Below are positions 4,075 through 14,597 of a stretch of 64,000 nt of DNA, piece after piece (within the stretch, counting starts at the first letter, position 1; every line of letters starts with the position of its first letter). The translations under genes were made by a program, and so were the position numbers. The notes under the pieces are model-generated. The model ran no database searches. It was given only the letters and a program-made list of their open reading frames with translations, and was not told the origin of the DNA. The stretch is from an uncultured SAR86 cluster bacterium. GTDB lineage: Bacteria; Pseudomonadota; Gammaproteobacteria; Magnimaribacterales; AG-339-G14. The DNA is taken from the NCBI GenBank assembly GCA_902587545.1, contig CACILL010000002.1:124001-188000 (forward strand), given 5' to 3'.

Positions 4075-4736
4075 TGATAACGCTTGGATTAACAATTATT
4101 CCAAGCATAGCAATTCTCTTGTACGTAATTTTTTCTGATAAATTCAGAGAGCCATTAATTTCTATTTTAACTACCTTTTTTTTAGGATTTTTAATAATCC
4201 TACCTGCAGGTTTTTTAAATAGTTTCTTAATTTTTCAAAATCAGGAACAAGACTTATCTTTTTTAGCAGGACTCACGGAAGAGTCACTAAAATTATTTTG
4301 CTTATATTTCTTTATCAGAGAAAAAAAGCATTTTAACGAGCCTATGGATGGTATTGTTTATGGAGTTTTAATTTCTCTAGGATTTGCGACTTATGAAAAT
4401 ATTCAATACGTTTACATCCTCTCTACAGAATATGGAGTAGCCCCTTTTGAAGTAGCTGCATGGAGGTCATTTTCTGCAATCCCGATGCATGCAATTTGTG
4501 GAATCATAATGGGTTATTTTTTTGGTGAGTATGTTTTTAAAGGTAACTCATCTGATATATTTAAAAGTTGGATTATTCCAATGATATTTCATGGTTTATA
4601 CAACTTCCTTGTGACTTTCACGCTTTTATATTTGATAATACTTTTCATTGCAGGAGCTTATGCTTATCGATTGCTCAAAAATGTTGCAAAAAAACAAAAA
4701 TTAAAAAATATTGAGGATGAAAAAAAAGCTATCTAA
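4074..4736 (+). CDS. PrsW-family intramembrane metalloprotease
   Basis: 220 residues, strongly hydrophobic with about seven membrane segments. Family motifs are present in order: TEESLK (the EExxK motif), MDGIVYG, ATYENIQYV, PMHAICG and IFHGLYNF, which together supply the Glu and His residues expected for metal binding. PrsW of Bacillus subtilis cleaves an anti-sigma factor within the membrane. The substrate here is unknown, and no sigma/anti-sigma pair is nearby. It sits between a lipoprotein gene (overlapping stop/start) and the ion-channel gene, whose 5' end overlaps its 3' end, so the three are likely one transcript. Confidence 0.8.
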   Translation: MITLGLTIIPSIAILLYVIFSDKFREPLISILTTFFLGFLIILPAGFLNSFLIFQNQEQDLSFLAGLTEESLKLFCLYFFIREKKHFNEPMDGIVYGVLISLGFATYENIQYVYILSTEYGVAPFEVAAWRSFSAIPMHAICGIIMGYFFGEYVFKGNSSDIFKSWIIPMIFHGLYNFLVTFTLLYLIILFIAGAYAYRLLKNVAKKQKLKNIEDEKKAI

Positions 4737-6180
4737 ATATTTATTTTTTGCATTTATGTACATTTTTTTTTCTTCATCTATTTTTGGAGAGAAAGTCACT
4801 ATAGATGTAGAATTTAACGAATGTGAAATTCTAGAAAATTTACTTATTTCAAATCCTTCAAAAATTGCATTTAATCTTCCATATTTATCCGATGCAGAGT
4901 ATTCAGGAATAGATTATGTTTTTATGGGAGATGCCTATCCTCTCATAACGAAAATTCACCCAAAGAGCATAGTAAATGGCCAGTTAATTACAAAAGCAAT
5001 TCACGAGATTGTTCTTAATGAAAAACTCACAAAAATTAATGGTAAAGACGTTTTGACATTGGACGAAACTCAACTGGAAGAGGAATTTTACAAAGAATCT
5101 ATATTTTTGGAATTTGAGAACTTTGAAGATATTTTTGAATTCAAGCTACAAAGTTTAAGCTGGCGTGAAGTTCTTGTTAGGCCTGAACTTAACTGGATAA
5201 AAAATATAAATACTAAAGAAGGTAAAATAGATATATCACTTGATCTAAATGTAAATTGGAGTGACACGTTTATTTCAAGAGAAGCTAATAAACTAAAAGG
5301 CATAGACTCTGTAGATGGATCTTGGCAGTGCATATATCCCATAGAATTGTTTAAAGAGTTAGGATACTTATTGCCAAAACCTATCTTTGTTGGTTTTGAA
5401 CCAAGTTTTGAAGACATAGAAATAAAATCTGTAACAGTTGCTTACTTTCCTCCAGAATTTTGTACCCCTGAGGCTGATTGCGATCCCTACGAAAAGGAAC
5501 ATGGTGAAACCCAACTCGTATATAAAAAAGAATATGTAGGAATTTTGAATTCCACATACAATTTAGAGAAGTTCCCTTTTGATACTCAAGACATTGTTGT
5601 TAGCTTTTATCTGGAAAATTTAACACAGTATCTTGATGACCCTACCACCGAAAGTAGGACAGATGACTTTTTGTATTACGCTTTATCTAAAAATAATTTC
5701 TTAGAATGGGATCTACTAAATTATGATGTTAACTATGGAACAACTTTAGATGTTTTAAGAGATGAAGTAATACCTACCTTTAATTTAAGTGTAACGGTCA
5801 AGAGGGAATCTCTATATTATCTGTTTAAAATTATGTTTCCCATTTTTTGTTTGGTGTTTATATGTTATTCAGTTTTTTGGATACACCCACGACAATTAGA
5901 AAGCCGGGTTACGATCAGCATAGTTTGCTTGTTGTCTCTTATAGCTTATAACTTTGTAATTGATGGCGACATACCAAAACTGGCATATCTAACTTTTCTA
6001 GATCAATACATTCTTTTATCGTACTTATTTGCCGGAATTCCGACAATCCAGACAGTTATAGTAAGAAGAGTTTATGAAAATAATGGAGAAGAAAAGGCAT
6101 TAAATTTTGATTACTATTCAAAAACTTTATTTCCATTAGGCTTTTTTATTATATTTACCTACCTAATTTTTACAATTTAA
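4717..6180 (+). CDS. Pentameric ligand-gated ion channel with N-terminal PDZ-like domain
   Basis: 487 residues from ATG 4717; an in-frame TTG at 4711 is an alternative start. A signal peptide (KKKLSKYLFF... ending SSIFG) comes first. Residues about 55-150 look like a PDZ-type fold: a strand GIDYVFM, a strand YPLITKIHPKS, LTKINGKDV, then a helix. A pLGIC extracellular domain follows (about 170-365), with KFPFDTQD in the Cys-loop position, here without the Cys pair. Four membrane segments end the protein: M1 around MFPIFCLVF, pore-lining M2 around SRVTISIVCLLS, M3 around LDQYILLSYLF and a C-terminal M4. Such channels pass ions when a ligand binds outside. The ligand is unknown. The gene overlaps the prsW-like gene by 20 bases. 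Confidence 0.8.
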   Translation: MKKKLSKYLFFAFMYIFFSSSIFGEKVTIDVEFNECEILENLLISNPSKIAFNLPYLSDAEYSGIDYVFMGDAYPLITKIHPKSIVNGQLITKAIHEIVLNEKLTKINGKDVLTLDETQLEEEFYKESIFLEFENFEDIFEFKLQSLSWREVLVRPELNWIKNINTKEGKIDISLDLNVNWSDTFISREANKLKGIDSVDGSWQCIYPIELFKELGYLLPKPIFVGFEPSFEDIEIKSVTVAYFPPEFCTPEADCDPYEKEHGETQLVYKKEYVGILNSTYNLEKFPFDTQDIVVSFYLENLTQYLDDPTTESRTDDFLYYALSKNNFLEWDLLNYDVNYGTTLDVLRDEVIPTFNLSVTVKRESLYYLFKIMFPIFCLVFICYSVFWIHPRQLESRVTISIVCLLSLIAYNFVIDGDIPKLAYLTFLDQYILLSYLFAGIPTIQTVIVRRVYENNGEEKALNFDYYSKTLFPLGFFIIFTYLIFTI

Positions 6181-6495: not shown

Positions 6496-7425
6496 CTATA
6501 CAGAATCAAATAACATTCTGTAATCAATATTCTCTCTCTTGACGCCTGCCCATTCAAAAAAAGAAATCCAAAAACCCTTCAAATTTCTTTCAAGAGGTTT
6601 TCCTCTAACTTCCTTATTTATTACGTGATAGATTATTATCTTTGAGTTTTCTGAGAAAGAAGGCTTAATTTCATCCAAATAAGATTGAATTTTTCTTGAA
6701 GCAGCTTTATAAAATTTTTCAAAATCGGAACAGTTTAGTTTTGTATTATAGTCCTTACATAACTTTCTCAAAAAAATACGATCGCTAAATTGCATCAAAT
6801 CAGAAAATAGAACCAATGTCCTTTCTTGGTAATCGCTTTCTCTAAAATCAAATTTTGAAACGGTGGTCACAGCATTTATATGTTCAAAAAGAAGAGTTTT
6901 ATTTGCAGGTTTAGCAGCTCCTAGACTTTCTAAAGATTTTAGCTGTGTTAATGCTCCCCATTTACGGAACTCATTCTTTGTAAAATTTACTCCTTGAGAT
7001 GAATGCGGAGCATCTGCTGCAAATGGTGAAACAGCAATGCCACTTCTTGGTCGGCAGCGATCTGCAAGAGGAATCGCCTCTGATGGAGTGACTTTATCAT
7101 TTAAATTTATTAGAGATACTTTCGTATAAGGCTCTAATGAAAGTAAGGTTTTTCTATCGAGCACATCTCCTTTCAAAAAACCGATTTCGTTATTGCTTAG
7201 ACCATCTGTAGTGTCTACTAAAACGAGATAATGTTTCCTCTTCATCTCAGAAAGTAAAGGACAAGATTTTGAATCAAAACATTCTTTCTTTGTTATCAGA
7301 GGAGGGTTTCTTGTTTGTCCATCTACGTCAGATTTGCATACTTCATTTAGGTTTTCATCTGATCCAAAAAAAGTAAAAGCAGAGAAGCTAAAACTAAAAA
7401 TAAAAAAAAGAACTATCCTTATCAT
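6496..7425 (-). CDS. Secreted VWA-like protein of unknown function
   Basis: 309 residues with a signal peptide (about 1-20, hydrophobic IRIVLFFIFSFSFSAF). A strand with acidic residues, HYLVLVDTTDGLS (about 65-77), and a later strand, RTLVLFSDLMQF, resemble the first and fourth strands of a von Willebrand A / Rossmann-like fold with a partial metal-binding site. Several Cys residues (near 30, 49, 55, 125, 220 and 232) suit an exported, disulfide-bonded protein. The start overlaps the stop of the preceding membrane-protein gene (ATGA), so the two are translationally coupled and probably act together at the inner membrane. The VWA assignment is from pattern only. Confidence 0.55.
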   Translation of the reverse strand: MIRIVLFFIFSFSFSAFTFFGSDENLNEVCKSDVDGQTRNPPLITKKECFDSKSCPLLSEMKRKHYLVLVDTTDGLSNNEIGFLKGDVLDRKTLLSLEPYTKVSLINLNDKVTPSEAIPLADRCRPRSGIAVSPFAADAPHSSQGVNFTKNEFRKWGALTQLKSLESLGAAKPANKTLLFEHINAVTTVSKFDFRESDYQERTLVLFSDLMQFSDRIFLRKLCKDYNTKLNCSDFEKFYKAASRKIQSYLDEIKPSFSENSKIIIYHVINKEVRGKPLERNLKGFWISFFEWAGVKRENIDYRMLFDSV

Positions 7426-8855
7426 TGAATCAGCCCATCTCTTTGATTGCTGTATTCTTCGTAGATCTCTTGAATACGTCTCAGAACACTATCTCTATTG
7501 ACTTCTAGAGTTCTTGTTGCTTCAGCTTTAATCTGATTGGCAGCATCATCTTCAAAGTATTCTCCTTGCAAGAAAGGAAAAGTGTTTGAAAATGAATAAT
7601 TATTAGGATTTAAATGAGTTTCAAATTCTGGGGACCTGATCAAGTCATAGTAAGCCGATCTTCCATGTAAATTTTGATTTCTATATTCATCATTTTTTGA
7701 ATAATATTCTTGTATCGCATGATCTAGCTTTGATGAAACATCTCTAATGAAAGAATCAAAACTTGATTTAAATAATTGTAGGGTTTCTACAGAACTTCTC
7801 CAAAGTTGAATTGACTCTATATCAGATTCAAATTCCTTCTTCACTTCATTAGAAAAATGAGTCATTCTAGAAAGTAATTTTTCGGTAAGAGCATTCCTAT
7901 TGTCTTCAAGATTTGATTTTGCTTTGTTTACTTTCTCTCCAAGAGACCCATATCCTCTGTAAGTATCATTTTTAAATAAACCATCTAAAAGAGAGGCAAA
8001 CGCAAAAATAAAACATACTGTTATAAATTGAATGCCGTTTTGCTCTAATGCACCTAGTTGACTAAAGGGATTCCCCACCTGGACTAAAGCTAAGCCAAAA
8101 GAAAAATCTTCACTATTAGCTTGATTTTCTAATAGGGACCTATATACCCCAAAAAGAAAATTTACAAAGGTAATTAAAGCAAGCCACAAAATAACAAAAA
8201 CAGAACCCCAAATACGATATGTTATTTCTTTAAACCAAAGCCATGGGAGCATCATGCCTATGAAAAATGAGGTCAATACATTTACAAGAGAGATTCCTAA
8301 GGCCATCATTTGACCTGCAACAGCACCGCCTTGCATGTTATCAGCAAAAACTTGTCCGTTATAATATGTTTCAAAACCTATGAAAACTAAGGGAACCAAG
8401 TAAGTAACAATCTTTATCCAATAAGGACGAACTACTGGGTCTCTTTTAAGTCTATGTTCCAGTTTGAAAGTTCTGAGATTATTTTCTGTTCGGCTAACTT
8501 CATCTCTTAAGGTAGCAAAATCTGATTCCGCACCTGCAAAATCTGCGTTTAATTGAGCCCTCATTTCTCCTTCAATTCTTGAAAAAGGATTTAAACTAAA
8601 TTTCTGTCTGTTATTGCTAATGTAGCCTGCTATATCTTGACTCCATGCTCTAGCTCTCTGTGTTTCTTCTCCTATGTGATTCAAAGCCTCAGTTTCAGCT
8701 TCTTGTGCGGTTTCGCAAAGAGAATTTAGCTCAGCCGAAGGTAGCCCTGCAGCAGCATCATTTTGTGCTCTATTTTCAATATCAGCTTTTCTTTCAAGCT
8801 CATGAGTTTCTAACAGTTTAAACTCAAAAACATCTATATCTAACTGTACGCCCAT
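7422..8855 (-). CDS. Coiled-coil inner-membrane protein of unknown function
   Basis: 477 residues. A long charged, helical N-terminal region (1-140) rich in Glu, Arg and Ala precedes four predicted membrane helices (about 146-163, 181-205, 214-238 and 274-294). A second long helical, coiled-coil-like region (about 305-400) and a Glu-rich C-terminal helix follow. I recognise no family. The layout suggests cytoplasmic helical arms on a four-helix membrane core. It lies upstream of, and overlaps by 4 bases, the secreted VWA-like gene; three tiny genes precede it. The 89 bases upstream (8856-8944) show no gene and probably hold a leader or promoter. Confidence 0.55.
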   Translation of the reverse strand: MGVQLDIDVFEFKLLETHELERKADIENRAQNDAAAGLPSAELNSLCETAQEAETEALNHIGEETQRARAWSQDIAGYISNNRQKFSLNPFSRIEGEMRAQLNADFAGAESDFATLRDEVSRTENNLRTFKLEHRLKRDPVVRPYWIKIVTYLVPLVFIGFETYYNGQVFADNMQGGAVAGQMMALGISLVNVLTSFFIGMMLPWLWFKEITYRIWGSVFVILWLALITFVNFLFGVYRSLLENQANSEDFSFGLALVQVGNPFSQLGALEQNGIQFITVCFIFAFASLLDGLFKNDTYRGYGSLGEKVNKAKSNLEDNRNALTEKLLSRMTHFSNEVKKEFESDIESIQLWRSSVETLQLFKSSFDSFIRDVSSKLDHAIQEYYSKNDEYRNQNLHGRSAYYDLIRSPEFETHLNPNNYSFSNTFPFLQGEYFEDDAANQIKAEATRTLEVNRDSVLRRIQEIYEEYSNQRDGLIQ

Positions 8856-9300: not shown

Positions 9301-9538
9301 TTTCAACTCTTTCCAGATGTTCAGCTAGTGTTTTCCAAATCTTAGATTGTGAACTAATTTCTTTTTTAGCCAATAATCCTGCGGCATTTCCATATGCCCT
9401 TGAAATATATGAATTATTTTCTTCAGAACAATCTAAAATATATGTGCTTCTTCCGAAATTAAACTTGATAGTCTTATCATCAACCACAGAAAATGTTAAG
9501 TGTGTCTTTTTAGATTCAAGTTTTTTTTGTTTTTTCAT
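9293..9538 (-). CDS. Small hypothetical protein (81 aa)
   Basis: A basic N-terminus (MKKQKKLESKK) is followed by short strands (THLTFSVV, TIKFNFGRSTYILDC) and a C-terminal helix. It is predicted soluble and I recognise no family. Its ATG overlaps the TGA of the DUF6285 gene (ATGA), and its 3' end overlaps the next small gene. It is therefore part of one continuous minus-strand transcript from the acyl-CoA dehydrogenase gene onward, although its role need not be linked to that pathway. Confidence 0.5.
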   Translation of the reverse strand: MKKQKKLESKKTHLTFSVVDDKTIKFNFGRSTYILDCSEENNSYISRAYGNAAGLLAKKEISSQSKIWKTLAEHLERVENE

Positions 9539-9885
9539 AACTTATATTTGGGATTATCTATTTTAATTTTTTCCTCTGTAAGGTCATAAAGAAAATCTAT
9601 AAGATCTTTGTCTTCATGGTTAAATTCTTTATCTCTTATTTTTTGAGACAATTTATCTATAGCGAAACCATTTTCTCCAATTAGCTTTGAACCTAATTCA
9701 GTGAATTTTTCATTAATCGCTTTTCCAGTTTCAACCTCTCTTTTAACGATATTCAAAACATTTAAAACAATTTGAAATTTAAACTTTTTATTTGCAGGAT
9801 GAGAGTCAGATTTTATTTCGTCATTGATAAAATCAATTATCGCCTCCAAAAGTTCTGCAGAGGTTGGTCTATCAAAAACACTCAT
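9535..9885 (-). CDS. DUF6285 domain protein
   Basis: 116 residues. The start, RPTSAELLEAIIDFINDEI, followed by FKFQIVLNVLNIVKREVE, matches the DUF6285 pattern, a small helical domain of unknown function. Proteins of this type are commonly encoded beside an APH-type phosphotransferase and an acyl-CoA dehydrogenase, exactly as here. It overlaps both neighbours by 4 bases (ATGA junctions). The inferred role is an accessory to the kinase/dehydrogenase pair upstream; no catalytic residues can be named. Confidence 0.7.
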   Translation of the reverse strand: MSVFDRPTSAELLEAIIDFINDEIKSDSHPANKKFKFQIVLNVLNIVKREVETGKAINEKFTELGSKLIGENGFAIDKLSQKIRDKEFNHEDKDLIDFLYDLTEEKIKIDNPKYKL

Positions 9886-10844
9886 AAGAAATTTTTATGT
9901 TTAATCATATTCATCAAGTCAAATTCCGTTTCCGATACCCTTCTGCCAATAGCTGCTTTTTCAACTGAATTTACCATGCCACTTAGATGAGCAAAAGTTT
10001 GCATCATGCAAATAACTCCCCATCGTAATGAACCATATAGCTGCCATATATCCAGCTGCGATTCTTCAATTTTTATATCAGAATTGGATTCATAGCCGGC
10101 GATGAGATCTTTGATATCTCCTAGACCGCCAACTCTTTTCTCGACGTTTCCAAATCGCCAAGAACGCACGCAAAGCCATCCTAAATCTTCCATAGGATTA
10201 CCGATATGTGCGAGCTCCCAATCAATAATGGATTCTAAATTTTCTTCCGAGATAATGAAGTTGCCAAAGCGAAAATCGCCATGAACCAAAACATCTCCAT
10301 AGTCAGTAAGCTCTTGAGCTTCCAGCCATTTAAAAGCTAAGTCAAAAACCGGTTGCGGTTGGTTAAAGCTCAGATATACCTGAAAAAGTTTTTCTAAAGA
10401 ATCTGAAAAGGTCACCTGATCAAGAGCTGTTAAATCGTCTAATTGTGTTTGGTGGATTTTTGCTAAAGATTTACCGATTTCAAAAGGAAGTTTTTCTCGA
10501 GCAGTTGCAAATTTTTCATCTCTAAGAATTTTACGAGGAATAGTCTCTCCTGGGATTGCTTCCATAACATATCCCTCACCTATTTCTTCGCCTTCAGAAA
10601 ACTCAAATAAAATTTCTGGTACCGGGGCACCATTTTTTTTTACAACTTTTTGTATTTTTGCTTCTAAGATTTTTGGAATTGCCATCACGGATTTTTCTTG
10701 TGACAGAGTTCGCCTTACAATCAACTCATCGTCATTAACAAGAATAATACGATTGATGTCTGCAGAAGCTCCCCCTGTAAGAGGAATAAGTTGTTTGATT
10801 TTTTGCTGCAGAGAATTTTCTAAAAATTCCTGAAAATTAGACAT
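9882..10844 (-). CDS. APH-family phosphotransferase (ACAD10/11-kinase-like, LvaA-like)
   Basis: 320 residues with the aminoglycoside-phosphotransferase/choline-kinase fold. LTGGASADINRI is the N-lobe loop, VHGDFRFGNF is the Brenner motif (catalytic Asp in HGD) and IIDWELAHIGNPMEDLGW is the metal-binding segment. This fold joined to an acyl-CoA dehydrogenase is found in mammalian ACAD10/ACAD11. A similar pair occurs in the Pseudomonas levulinate pathway (LvaA with LvaC), where the hydroxyl of a 4-hydroxyacyl-CoA is phosphorylated. The acyl-CoA dehydrogenase gene lies 1 base upstream and DUF6285 overlaps downstream, so the same chemistry is likely. The name aminoglycoside resistance would be misleading. 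Confidence 0.75.
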   Translation of the reverse strand: MSNFQEFLENSLQQKIKQLIPLTGGASADINRIILVNDDELIVRRTLSQEKSVMAIPKILEAKIQKVVKKNGAPVPEILFEFSEGEEIGEGYVMEAIPGETIPRKILRDEKFATAREKLPFEIGKSLAKIHQTQLDDLTALDQVTFSDSLEKLFQVYLSFNQPQPVFDLAFKWLEAQELTDYGDVLVHGDFRFGNFIISEENLESIIDWELAHIGNPMEDLGWLCVRSWRFGNVEKRVGGLGDIKDLIAGYESNSDIKIEESQLDIWQLYGSLRWGVICMMQTFAHLSGMVNSVEKAAIGRRVSETEFDLMNMIKHKNFL

Positions 10845-10845
10845 A

Positions 10846-12045
10846 TTAAGACACTAAGGATGCGTCTCGCTCACCAAAATCCCATCCAGGGCCATTGTTT
10901 TCGTAGTTTTTGAGAATACGTCTGGCAACGGATTGGACGTGAACTTCATCAGGACCGTCATAGATTCTTGCTTCTCTGGCATGTCGATACATCAAACTTA
11001 ATGGAGTATCGTCAGTGAGTCCTTTAGCGCCATGAACTTGGATGGCTCGATCTATGACATTGTGTAGCATCTCTGCCCCAACCACCTTAATCAAACCGAT
11101 TTCAATTCTGGCATCATCTCCCTGGTCAATTCTTTTAGCAGCATCAAGGGTTAAGTGACGAGAGGCTTGGATTTCACAAGCACTATCGAAGACAAATTTT
11201 TGTAGCAGTTGTTTTTTCGTTAGAGGTGTCCCAAAAGTTTCTCTCTCATGCATTCTTTCACAAAGCAGATCAAAAGCTCTTTGAGCTTGGCCTAGCCAAC
11301 GCATGCAATGAAAAATTCTACCTGGTCCAAGTCGTTTTTGTGCGATGATGAAACCTTGTCCCCTTGGACCCAATAAATTTTCTTCAGGAACTTCAACGTT
11401 GTCATATTTAACTTCGTAGTGTCCACCATTAATGCCAAGTACAGGAGTTTCTCGAACAATTTTATAACCTGGGTTATCTGTAGGAACAATAATCATGCTG
11501 AAAGCGCCATGACTAGGAGCGTCTAATTCAGTTCGACACATTACTGTAGTGTAAGCAGCTCTGGCAGCTCCAGTGGTAAACCATTTTGTGCCATTTATTT
11601 TCCACGTACCGTTATCAAGGATAGCTGTGGTTTGTAATTGGGTAGGATCTGAACTTGCAACATCCGGCTCGGTCATACCGAAACTTGGAAAAATTTCTCC
11701 CTGTACTAAGGGCTCAAGATATTGATCTCGCCAATGTGGCGAAGCAAATTCTCTAAGCATTATTGAATCTTGTAGAGAATGTGTGCCCAATGCCACCATG
11801 GCAAAAGAAGATCTACCAATGACCTCATTTACGTATACATATTCCATAAAAGGCATCCCGCCTCCACCAATATCTTCTGGGTGTCCCAATGCCCAAATTT
11901 TTTCATCCTTTGCCAATTGCATTAATGAACCAAGCATTTCTCGCGCCTCGGGCGTACCCTTAGCTAACTCAGTTTCTTTGGGATAAATTTCACTTTCAAT
12001 GAAATCTTTTACTTTTGCTCTAATTTTTGTCCAATCTTTACTCAT
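10846..12045 (-). CDS. Acyl-CoA dehydrogenase, ACAD10/11-like (LvaC-like)
   Basis: 399 residues from ATG 12045; a longer open frame reaches 12153, but that would run into lysS and has no family match. FAD and substrate motifs are seen in order: FGMTEPDVASSDP, WKINGTKWFTTGA, GPGRIFHCMRWLGQAQ and VHGAKGLTDDTPL. Near the C-terminus YDGPDEVH stands where classical enzymes have YEGT, a change typical of the ACAD10/11 branch. The expected role is acyl-CoA oxidation, or phosphate elimination working with the APH-type kinase encoded next. The gene follows lysS by 5 bases but belongs functionally with the two downstream genes. Confidence 0.85.
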   Translation of the reverse strand: MSKDWTKIRAKVKDFIESEIYPKETELAKGTPEAREMLGSLMQLAKDEKIWALGHPEDIGGGGMPFMEYVYVNEVIGRSSFAMVALGTHSLQDSIMLREFASPHWRDQYLEPLVQGEIFPSFGMTEPDVASSDPTQLQTTAILDNGTWKINGTKWFTTGAARAAYTTVMCRTELDAPSHGAFSMIIVPTDNPGYKIVRETPVLGINGGHYEVKYDNVEVPEENLLGPRGQGFIIAQKRLGPGRIFHCMRWLGQAQRAFDLLCERMHERETFGTPLTKKQLLQKFVFDSACEIQASRHLTLDAAKRIDQGDDARIEIGLIKVVGAEMLHNVIDRAIQVHGAKGLTDDTPLSLMYRHAREARIYDGPDEVHVQSVARRILKNYENNGPGWDFGERDASLVS

Positions 12046-12050
12046 AATTT

Positions 12051-13505
12051 TTATTTGTTTTTTAGTTGAGGAAATAATAAAACATCTCGAATAGATTCGG
12101 TACAGGTAATTAGCATAGTTAAACGATCTATACCAATACCAACTCCAGCACATGGAGCCAGTCCATGCTCTAGGGCTTCAATGTAATCTTTATCAAAATG
12201 CATCGCTTCATTATCACCTGAATCCTTTTTAACAACTTGCTCTTTGAAACGTTCTGCCTGTTCTTCAGGGTCATTTAACTCAGAAAAGCCGTTAGCAATC
12301 TCTTTACCGTCAATAAAAAGTTCAAATCTTTCTGCTATCTCAGGATTTACAGTTGAAGCTCTCGCTAAAGGTGAAACTTCAATTGGATATTCAGTAATAA
12401 AAGTAGGCTCTAAAAGTTTCTCTTCGACCAATGCTTCAAATATTTCATTTTTAATGATGGCCAATGAGGCTTTAGCATCAGTTTTTATTTTTTCTGCCTT
12501 GCAAAATTCCTTAAGTTTTTTGACATCCCTTAAGTCTTTTTTCTTCAAAGAAGTGAATTGCAATATTGCTTCATCCATAGTTAATTTATGAAAAGCTTTT
12601 TTAAATATATTTGTTTTATGAGGCAATGATTTTGTAATTGCTTTGAACATCTTCTCCACAAATTTAATTTGAAAGTCACTATCAACGTAAGCTGTATAAA
12701 ATTCCAACATGGTAAATTCCGGATTGTGTCTAGTTGAAAGCCCTTCATTTCTAAAATTTCTATTAATCTCAAATACTTTTTCAAATCCACCCACAATCAA
12801 TCTCTTTAAATACAATTCTGGTGCAACTCTTAAAAATAAATCCATATCCAAAGAGTTATGATGCGTAACAAAAGGTCTTGCTGTTGCCCCACCAGGAATG
12901 GGATGCATCATAGGAGTCTCAACTTCAATAAAGTCATCAGCCAACAAAAAAGCTCTGATTTTGCTTATTATTTCTGCTCTGGTTTTAAAGACCTCTAAAC
13001 TTTCTGGATTGGTCAATAAGTCTAGATAGCGTTTTCGGTAACGTAATTCGGTATCAGTTAAACCTATGTGTTTTTCCGGCAATGGTCTTAAAGATTTGGT
13101 TAAGAGTATTAATTTTTTAACATGTATCGAAAGTTCGCCGGTATTGGTTTTAAATACTGTGCCTTCTGCACCAACGATATCTCCTAAGTCATAATTTTTA
13201 AATTCATCATAATTAGAAATTTCATCAGCTCTAATGTAAAGCTGAATTCTTCCAGAAAAATCTTGAATGGTTGTAAAACTTGCCTTGCCCATCATTCTTC
13301 TAAGCATGATGCGTCCAGCGACTGTACCCTTTACTTTTTTCTTTTCTAATTCTTCTTTGGAAAATTCATCGAATTCATCTTTTAACTCTTGAGCCAAATG
13401 TTTTCTTTTGAAATCGTTTGGAAAGGCTTTATTAGCTTGTCTTAGTTCGGCTAGTTTTTTTCGCCTTTCTTCAATTAAATGGTTTTCTTCTTTGTCTTGA
13501 GACAT
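12051..13505 (-). CDS. lysS: Lysyl-tRNA synthetase, class II
   Basis: 484 residues. The N-terminal OB-fold anticodon domain (about 60-150, VAGRIMLRRMMGKASF) is followed by the class II catalytic core. Motif 2 is FEINRNFRNEGLSTRHNPEFTM and motif 3 is GVGIGIDRLTML. It attaches lysine to tRNA-Lys. Its ATG overlaps the TAA of prfB, giving the prfB-lysS pair known from E. coli. The length is slightly below the E. coli enzyme (505), mostly from a shorter N-terminus. Confidence 0.97.
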   Translation of the reverse strand: MSQDKEENHLIEERRKKLAELRQANKAFPNDFKRKHLAQELKDEFDEFSKEELEKKKVKGTVAGRIMLRRMMGKASFTTIQDFSGRIQLYIRADEISNYDEFKNYDLGDIVGAEGTVFKTNTGELSIHVKKLILLTKSLRPLPEKHIGLTDTELRYRKRYLDLLTNPESLEVFKTRAEIISKIRAFLLADDFIEVETPMMHPIPGGATARPFVTHHNSLDMDLFLRVAPELYLKRLIVGGFEKVFEINRNFRNEGLSTRHNPEFTMLEFYTAYVDSDFQIKFVEKMFKAITKSLPHKTNIFKKAFHKLTMDEAILQFTSLKKKDLRDVKKLKEFCKAEKIKTDAKASLAIIKNEIFEALVEEKLLEPTFITEYPIEVSPLARASTVNPEIAERFELFIDGKEIANGFSELNDPEEQAERFKEQVVKKDSGDNEAMHFDKDYIEALEHGLAPCAGVGIGIDRLTMLITCTESIRDVLLFPQLKNK

Positions 13506-14597
13506 TATGCAATTCCCTGCTTTAAACTAGCTTCAATAAATAAATCTAAATTTCCATCCAGTACATCGTTGCAATTTCCTGTTTCTACACCTGTTCTGAG
13601 GTCTTTAATTCTTGCCGAGTCTAATACGTAAGATCTTATTTGACTTCCCCAACCGATATCTGCTTTCGATGCCTCTAAATTTTCCATTTCTTGTTGTTGC
13701 TTTTTTAATTCTATCTCAAAGAGCTTTGCTCGTAACTGCTTCATCGCACTATCTTTGTTTTTATGTTGCGATCTTTGCGTTTGACACTGCACCACCACAC
13801 CCGAAGGTATGTGAGTCAAACGCACTGCCGAATCCGTTTTGTTAACGTGTTGCCCTCCTGCTCCACTTGCTCGGTAAGTATCGATTCGTATGTCAGCAGG
13901 ATTTAAATCAATTTGAATATCATCATCTACTTCTGGTGATACAAAAATTGATGCAAAAGAGGTATGACGACGATTTCCAGAATCGAAAGGAGATTTTCTT
14001 ACCAGTCGATGTACCCCTGACTCTGTTCTAAGCCAACCATAGGCAAACTCACCTTCAAATTTAATCGTAGCGCTTTTTATTCCTGCTACTTCTCCCGGAG
14101 AGACTTCAATTAATTCAGTTTTAAAACCCTTGTTTTCTCCCCATCTTAAGTACATCCGCAAAAGCATTTCTGCCCAATCCTGAGCTTCTGTGCCTCCCGA
14201 ACCAGACTGAATATCGAGATAAGTATTTGACTGATCCATCTTTCCTGAAAACATTCTACGGAACTCCAAATCCGCAATTTTTTCTTCAACTTTTAAAAGT
14301 TCTTCTTTTAATTGATTTGCCTCAGACTCATCTTCGCTGAGGAGCTCAAATAATTCATTTAGATCTCCCACAGAGTCATTTAATCCCTCTACCAAATCAA
14401 CAAGTTTTTCTAAAGAAGCTTTTTCCTTACCTAATTTTTGACTTTCTTCTTGATTGGACCAAACTTCAGGATCTTGAAGTCTAGTGTTGATATCGTTTAA
14501 GCGTTTTTTCTTTTCTTCAAAGTCAAAGGTACCCCCTAAGCTCAGCTAGAGACTTAGCAGCAACTTTGATTCTTTCACCTAAAGATAGTTCAACCAT
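13505..14597 (-). CDS. prfB: Peptide chain release factor 2 (programmed +1 frameshift)
   Basis: The gene starts at ATG 14597 ([10 protein letters not shown]...) and reads 24 codons to CTT followed by in-frame TGA at 14525-14523. A +1 shift at that point continues with GAC into the 340-codon main frame, giving 363 residues. The main frame has the GGQ motif (GAGGQHVN) needed for peptidyl-tRNA hydrolysis and the RF2-type region before it. It recognises UGA and UAA stops. Expression is expected to be autoregulated, because low RF2 favours the shift. thrC ends immediately upstream (TAA then ATG) and lysS overlaps downstream. Confidence 0.95.
14523..14540 (-). promoter_or_regulatory. prfB: RF2 programmed frameshift signal
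   Basis: On the minus strand the sequence reads CTTAGGGGGTACCTTTGAC. An internal Shine-Dalgarno-like AGGGGG lies three bases before CTT-TGA-C, the canonical arrangement known from E. coli prfB. The ribosome slips forward one base at CTT when release at UGA is slow. Confidence 0.95.

Follow-up and report, generated by a model that had tools for sequence, protein, structure and literature searches.

The window analysed here is a 64,000-nt stretch from an uncultured SAR86 cluster bacterium (assembly GCA_902587545.1, contig CACILL010000002.1, positions 124,001 to 188,000). On its minus strand, at 9535-12045, lie three adjacent genes for an acyl-CoA dehydrogenase (ACAD), an APH-type kinase and a DUF6285 protein. 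We propose, with a probability of about 0.8, that this trio is an LvaABC-type module that feeds 4-hydroxyacyl-CoAs, derived from gamma-lactones or 4-hydroxy fatty acids, into beta-oxidation. A pathway serving 4-hydroxy fatty acids in general was considered more likely than one for levulinate. Gene order, residues, family membership, and the co-occurrence and fusion of the kinase with LvaB were observed directly.

The reactions were modelled on characterised homologues. The kinase, in complex with the DUF6285 (LvaB) protein, would phosphorylate the 4-hydroxyl of a 4-hydroxyacyl-CoA with ATP. The FAD-containing ACAD would then take the C2 proton via D363, using its FAD transiently. The 4-phosphate, held by R238, H246 and R249, would be expelled to yield a 2-enoyl-CoA with no net oxidation.

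An initial annotation of the window had described the same three-gene set, and both the coordinates and the Pfam matches agreed with it. Its suggestion that the kinase and an ACAD-type lyase serve the use of 4-hydroxy acids was supported by the active-site residues kept in both proteins.

Active site and family of the acyl-CoA dehydrogenase

The ACAD (399 aa, 10846..12045; minus strand, as are the other features below unless stated) matched PF00441 (E 2e-41), PF02770 (2.2e-22) and PF02771 (1.5e-12). Its closest solved chains were those of ACAD11 (E 3.5e-69). Alignment to 8v3u and 8v3v, in which the chain number plus 1 gives the published residue number, placed R238, R243, H246 and R249 of the active-site helix RLGPGRIFHCMR (11299..11334) at R626, R631, H634 and R637 of ACAD11. 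The catalytic Asp, D363 (10957..10959), lies in IYDGPDEVH and corresponded to D753 in the alignment and the tree set. All five active-site residues of ACAD11 were therefore kept. According to the excerpted text of PMC12440821, conventional ACADs lack R626, H634 and R637, these residues hold the 4-phosphate in a simulation of ACAD11, and their replacement by Ala or Leu hit the ACAD activity hardest.

In a set of 42 ACADs, these residues separated the ACAD10/11/LvaC class from ordinary ACADs, with a deviation at R637 in one paralogue from the window's own genome (L136). In the tree, the HCMR/Asp enzymes formed one set of 24 rows (support 98/100) with three main branches. LvaC grouped with a Thermus enzyme (99/97), and seven rows of ACAD10/11 type, mouse ACAD11 among them, made up a second branch (100/100). 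The window ACAD fell into a branch of 12 rows (100/99) that held SAR86, two other gammaproteobacterial loci, Nonomuraea (66.6% identity to the window ACAD) and Rhodococcus, with mouse ACAD11 outside. Three rows (L136, L148 and L150) sat in no main branch with firm support. The ordinary ACADs had long branches, and their positions are uncertain according to a warning of the tree program. Judged from its sequence, the window ACAD belongs to a third, uncharacterised branch of the class, and it is predicted to be a 4-phosphoacyl-CoA lyase in the role of LvaC.

The genome of the window (about 1.13 Mb, 85% complete) contained four ACADs of this class, namely the window enzyme, L136, L137 and L138, among ten matches to PF02770. 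The fourth HCMR-class enzyme, L136 (1099-2325 of its locus, contig C1), has Asn at the R637 position, and its phosphate site is possibly changed. A 41-43% match to the window ACAD was present in 6/6 SAR86 genomes searched and may be the same gene as L136.

An ordinary acyl-CoA dehydrogenase could also lie beside an unrelated small-molecule kinase in a grouping without metabolic meaning, and some kinase-DUF6285 pairs do adjoin ACADs of the ordinary type (L029, L070, L073, L077, L079, L081, L091 and L098). We regarded this as hardly credible for the window. Its ACAD is not of the ordinary type, and the trio is kept across two SAR86 families in differing surroundings. The order ACAD, kinase, DUF6285 recurred in 11/13 named SAR86 loci, the other two (L035 and L043) being cut by a contig end, which argues that the grouping is not due to chance.

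The kinase and its DUF6285 partner

The kinase (320 aa, 9882..10844) matched PF01636 (APH, E 2.4e-24) and is one of four APH matches in the genome. Its catalytic loop HGDFRFGN (10260..10283) aligned with that of 8v3v, D190 and N195 corresponding to D220 and N225 of ACAD11. In a tree of 44 kinases, it shared a clade with LvaA of a complete lva operon (support 99/97). The catalytic D and N, a DWE motif and the position in the LvaA clade all identified it as LvaA-type, and it is predicted to be a 4-hydroxyacyl-CoA kinase. Kinases of ACAD10/11 type (mouse, 3dxp, Bosea, Sphingopyxis and the own-genome paralogue L151) stood apart (100/97), the mouse and 3dxp rows being fragments (174 residues for the mouse kinase piece). 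A divergent kinase of the window genome (L152) had a very long branch and was left unplaced. Partner labels in this tree were set per locus, so L075_4643, L034, L087, L145 and L074_5827 were labelled as partnered though DUF6285 is not directly behind them.

The initial annotation had taken the kinase and the ACAD for the partners fused in ACAD10/ACAD11. This did not hold strictly, as the kinase fell into the LvaA/LvaB clade and the ACAD into the third branch. The phylogeny that it had called for against LvaA and LvaC confirmed the kinase as a member of the LvaA clade and placed the ACAD outside the LvaC branch. It had also named grouping outside ACAD10/11 as grounds for dropping the idea. Both trees gave such a grouping to the letter, and the residues for the shared chemistry were kept nonetheless. 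The ACAD lay apart from mouse ACAD11, and the kinase lay apart and had no RQxxxW segment (see below), so neither belongs to ACAD10/ACAD11 proper in the narrow sense. The enzymes are cousins of that clade, not members, and for the accessory subunit the name LvaB already exists.

The mammalian ACAD10 and ACAD11 share the active-site residues of the ACAD and the catalytic residues of the kinase with the window proteins. They differ in that the two domains are fused, whereas the window has separate proteins, an LvaB, an ACAD of another branch, and a kinase of another clade.

We also considered that the kinase acts on some other hydroxylated compound, such as a hydroxy-steroid or a cyclic acyl-CoA, with the ACAD either removing the phosphate from that product or working independently. 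The window kinase had a sequence match to the 25-hydroxy steroid kinase (9fsg, 3e-04), and the first PDB chain by fold for a related fusion protein (L108) was again this enzyme (9fsg, E 5.2e-13; 9ft5, Z 23.7, 3.8 A over 322). A Rhodococcus relative of the ACAD (L146) lies beside genes for a lipid-transfer protein and a Rieske protein, with no kinase annotated nearby. The 25-hydroxy steroid kinase resembles the window kinase in its fold, and it too turns a hydroxyl into a leaving group by phosphorylation. However, 3dxp and 3ats tied with it in fold, and 3dxp and ACAD11, which are among the solved chains nearest to the window kinase by sequence, scored above 9fsg. It acts on free steroids, and the part of PMC8449060 consulted describes its phosphate lyase as unknown, with no candidate near the kinase gene. 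All the ACAD residues holding the 4-phosphate, moreover, were kept in the window. A different substrate is therefore unlikely.

The DUF6285 protein (116 aa, 9535..9885) matched PF19802 at residues 30-114 (E 5.7e-15; 56.2 bits against a cut-off of 28.1). The same profile matched the NCBI-named LvaB (WP_015270461.1; 85.3 bits, E 4.8e-24) of the P. aeruginosa plasmid p12939-PER (L028), which was tested in place of the KT2440 LvaB itself. In this plasmid the order is a divergent PrpR-like regulator, kinase, LvaB, ACAD, short-chain dehydrogenase/reductase (SDR), acyl-CoA synthetase, DUF485 and symporter. The DUF6285 proteins behind such kinases in Thermus and Sulfitobacter matched PF19802 as well. 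By this profile, DUF6285 is the LvaB family, the small subunit of 4-hydroxypentanoyl-CoA kinase.

The initial annotation had thus been mistaken in giving DUF6285 no known role. A pulldown showed the 12-kDa LvaB of P. putida to interact with LvaA, and deletion of lvaB stops growth on levulinate (excerpted text of PMC6692424, citing Rand 2017). Since DUF6285 is LvaB and LvaB binds LvaA, an accessory role has already been shown for a member of the family. The suggestion that DUF6285 is an accessory subunit was supported further by its adjacency to the kinase and by fusions of the two. No mention of DUF6285 was found in the full texts of the open-licence literature.

The model of the window protein had four helices (pLDDT 92.5, pTM 0.75). 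It had no relatives in the PDB by sequence (best E 0.77) or by Foldseek at E<=0.001, and the best VIA-align result was Z 6.8 over 46 residues. In an alignment of 44 rows, two residues were invariant, Arg49 and Pro112 by the numbering of the window protein.

DUF6285 was present in 79/80 named loci of kinase relatives (the best 80 of 591). It lay directly behind the kinase, on the same strand and with a gap of <350 nt, in 78/80. The exceptions were L043, which is cut at a contig end, and L087, with DUF6285 1.6 kb downstream. These proportions are biased upward, because the search alignment consisted of DUF6285-partnered kinases. Kinase and DUF6285 were joined in one open frame in 5/114 loci (L032, L065, L075, L107 and L108), a strong sign that they form one complex. 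The model of the natural fusion L108 (pLDDT 89.9, pTM 0.89) had a low-confidence linker and suggests a defined docking of the kinase and LvaB domains. It was built from a smaller alignment (A6) with checked row placement, in which the DUF6285 part holds stray residues from a few kinase-only rows. An earlier alignment (A4) was set aside, as its rows with DUF6285 alone had evidently been aligned to the kinase, where their identity was low.

Some variations on the pair were seen. A tandem pair of LvaA-type kinases preceded a single DUF6285 in L074 (5827-7989). The eight pairs mentioned above that adjoin ordinary-type ACADs are near enzymes of another clade, with catalytic Glu and without HCMR, and many Bradyrhizobium loci also have an HCMR/Asp ACAD a few kb off on the opposite strand. 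It may be that the LvaAB pair also works in a second pathway. In two records titled Bifidobacterium breve (L053 and L065; only L065 was in the tree), the kinases sat among those of other groups. We judged these to be probably mislabelled metagenome bins. No relative of the window kinase was found in the viral contigs searched.

The same three families are those of LvaA, LvaB and LvaC. The trio could accordingly serve levulinate catabolism as its counterparts do in Pseudomonas putida, the levulinyl-CoA reductase and the ligase then being encoded at other sites of the genome, which holds eight AMP-binding ligases and 17 SDR matches to LvaD. Compared with the lva operon (lvaABC of P. putida KT2440, and the complete homologous operon of L028), the window likewise has LvaB immediately after a kinase of the same clade, and an HCMR/Asp ACAD. 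In the window, however, the ACAD comes first rather than last. It is 35% identical to LvaC of the operon and lies in a separate branch, and the trio stands behind lysS among housekeeping neighbours, with no LvaD, LvaE, LvaF, LvaG, LvaR or transporter gene adjoining it. A levulinate operon was rejected, since the ACAD falls outside the LvaC branch and none of the other operon genes adjoins the trio. A dispersed levulinate set was judged very unlikely. A search of the open-licence literature found nothing joining SAR86 with levulin*.

The missing operon neighbours also weigh against the LvaABC-type module that we prefer, and so do several other points. The best SDR of the genome is 36% identical to LvaD, and the matches of the eight AMP-binding enzymes to LvaE are at 22-32%. 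The window DUF6285 gave no significant BLAST match to the L028 LvaB, so that the link rests on the Pfam profile. The window kinase is without the segment of ACAD11 that contains R176. To our knowledge, there has been no assay of any third-branch ACAD or any SAR86 enzyme.

The RQxxxW segment in two kinase clades

R176 of the ACAD11 kinase is linked to CoA by simulation (excerpted text of PMC12440821). When mapped by alignment to ACAD11, it fell in a segment with the pattern RQxxxW that is shared by the kinases of ACAD10/11 type. In the kinases of the LvaB clade the motif was missing and the stretch was about five residues shorter. In the window kinase the corresponding stretch is at approximately 10359..10412, and the motif is absent.

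RQxxxW was found within the 75 residues before the HGD loop in 0/109 kinases with DUF6285 directly behind them, and in 13/24 without. This narrow rule missed four cases. When the motif was allowed anywhere in the domain, the counts were 1/109 and 17/24, the wider rule adding one match in a partnered kinase. An earlier pattern, in which R, T or K precedes W, gave 0/109 and 5/12. None of the 17 RQxxxW kinases had DUF6285 beside it.

The 24 unpartnered kinases comprised 12 initial ones and 12 from added plasmid loci. RQxxxW was absent from seven of them. L043 ends with its contig, and DUF6285 lies about 380 nt off in L034, 1.6 kb off in L087, and >5 kb off on the other strand in L145. The remaining three were the first of the two tandem kinases in L074, L031 with a shortened LvaB-like partner, and the divergent L152. 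The 109 partnered domains, from which the window's own copies were left out, include many from Bradyrhizobium and amount to 105 distinct sequences. Some genomes also enter twice, under two loci, so the figures are not independent events. Because the rows are related, the pattern is to be read as a split between two clades rather than as many separate events.

Twelve test loci were chosen for breadth from 60 listed of 231 records, with a partnerless kinase as the query and human-associated species passed over. DUF6285 was present in 0/12, all 12 kinases had the RQ...W segment, and an HCMR ACAD lay in the fetched flank of 9/12. Bacterial pairs of ACAD10/11 type, such as those of Bosea (L147) and Sphingopyxis (L149), and the own-genome paralogues L137 and L138 (ACADs) and L151 (kinase) resemble the window in having an HCMR/Asp ACAD and an APH kinase. 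They differ from it as the test loci do.

This distribution suggests that LvaB may replace the RQxxxW recognition segment absent from its kinase clade. A tentative and rather doubtful extension is that the four-helix LvaB, with its invariant Arg49 and Pro112, would be a detached substrate-recognition domain, which docks on the kinase and supplies a binding surface for 4-hydroxyacyl-CoA. The kinases of the LvaB clade would have lost, or never had, the CoA-recognising RQxxxW. There would then be two parallel families of the same enzyme, both in this genome of 1.1 Mb with its four such ACADs.

A histidine phosphatase gene lay directly beside the ACAD10/11-type kinase in 4/12 loci (L161, L164, L166 and L168; two of the 12 are unannotated), and one was found behind DUF6285 in Thermus (L030). 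It is perhaps the counterpart of the HAD domain of ACAD10. In the window genome, the ACAD10/11-type kinase L151 (3531-5493 of its locus, C1:334 kb) is followed by two short MaoC-like ORFs, read from their translation, and a transporter-like ORF.

The locus and its conservation in SAR86

Directly upstream of the ACAD is lysS, for lysine--tRNA ligase (12051..13505; NF001756/TIGR00499), preceded by a prfB-like release factor ORF (13505..14395) named from reading its translation. The ACAD start at 12045 was preferred, because the mechanical ORF start at 12153 falls within lysS, whose last base is 12051. The lysS stop is 5 nt from the ACAD start, ACAD and kinase are 1 nt apart, and kinase and DUF6285 overlap by 4 nt. 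Because of this tight spacing, the trio is likely a single translationally coupled unit behind prfB-lysS, probably on the same transcript as lysS. Expression from the lysS operon would be constitutive, not substrate-induced.

The trio's remaining neighbours in the window are two adjacent ORFs behind it (309 and 477 aa, 6496-8855), with no Pfam match at E<=0.001. Further on, 4711-6180 on the plus strand encodes a pentameric ligand-gated ion channel-like protein (PF02932, 9.7e-07; best phmmer E to bacterial channels 5.8e-14), which is unexpected in a streamlined genome.

DUF6285 was found in 27/41 related genomes including that of the window: 21/25 of its own family, 6/6 of a second family, and 0/10 in two others. 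In a class-wide sample it was found in 3/143, the window's own included. The trio stood behind prfB-lysS in 4/13 named SAR86 loci (L036-L039). Neither lysS nor prfB was matched in the remaining nine, of which some have little upstream sequence. In another SAR86 locus (L059), the gene before the trio is ketoacyl-synthase-like, and two SDR genes and one for an acyl-CoA ligase are close by.

Two genomes of its genus had the window ACAD unchanged (100% identity, 399 residues), and the identities were 96% in two other genera and 87% and 84% further out, the last in another family. For the ACAD10/11-type paralogue L138, the identities in five of the same six genomes were 94, 92, 76, 74 and 75%, with no close copy in the sixth. 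In the four comparable loci (L036-L039), the ACAD was 96-97% identical, prfB 79-94%, LysRS 64-84%, the kinase 77-80% and DUF6285 58-63%. In AG-404-D10 the kinase was 96% identical. Conservation was thus higher in the ACAD than in LysRS or in the kinase beside it, and by these comparisons the SAR86 ACAD is under unusually strong constraint.

What is new here is the bare, highly conserved SAR86 form of the module, the third ACAD branch, and a split between kinase clades that hints at the purpose of LvaB. With DUF6285 identified as LvaB, a Pfam domain that had no assigned function receives a name, and a third branch of the recently solved 4-hydroxy-acid enzymes is placed in SAR86. The clade split makes the question of why LvaA needs LvaB directly testable. 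SAR86 is an abundant bacterial group of the surface ocean. If lipid oxidation constantly exposes it to 4-hydroxy acids and gamma-lactones, as food or as a hazard, the conserved ACAD would mark this.

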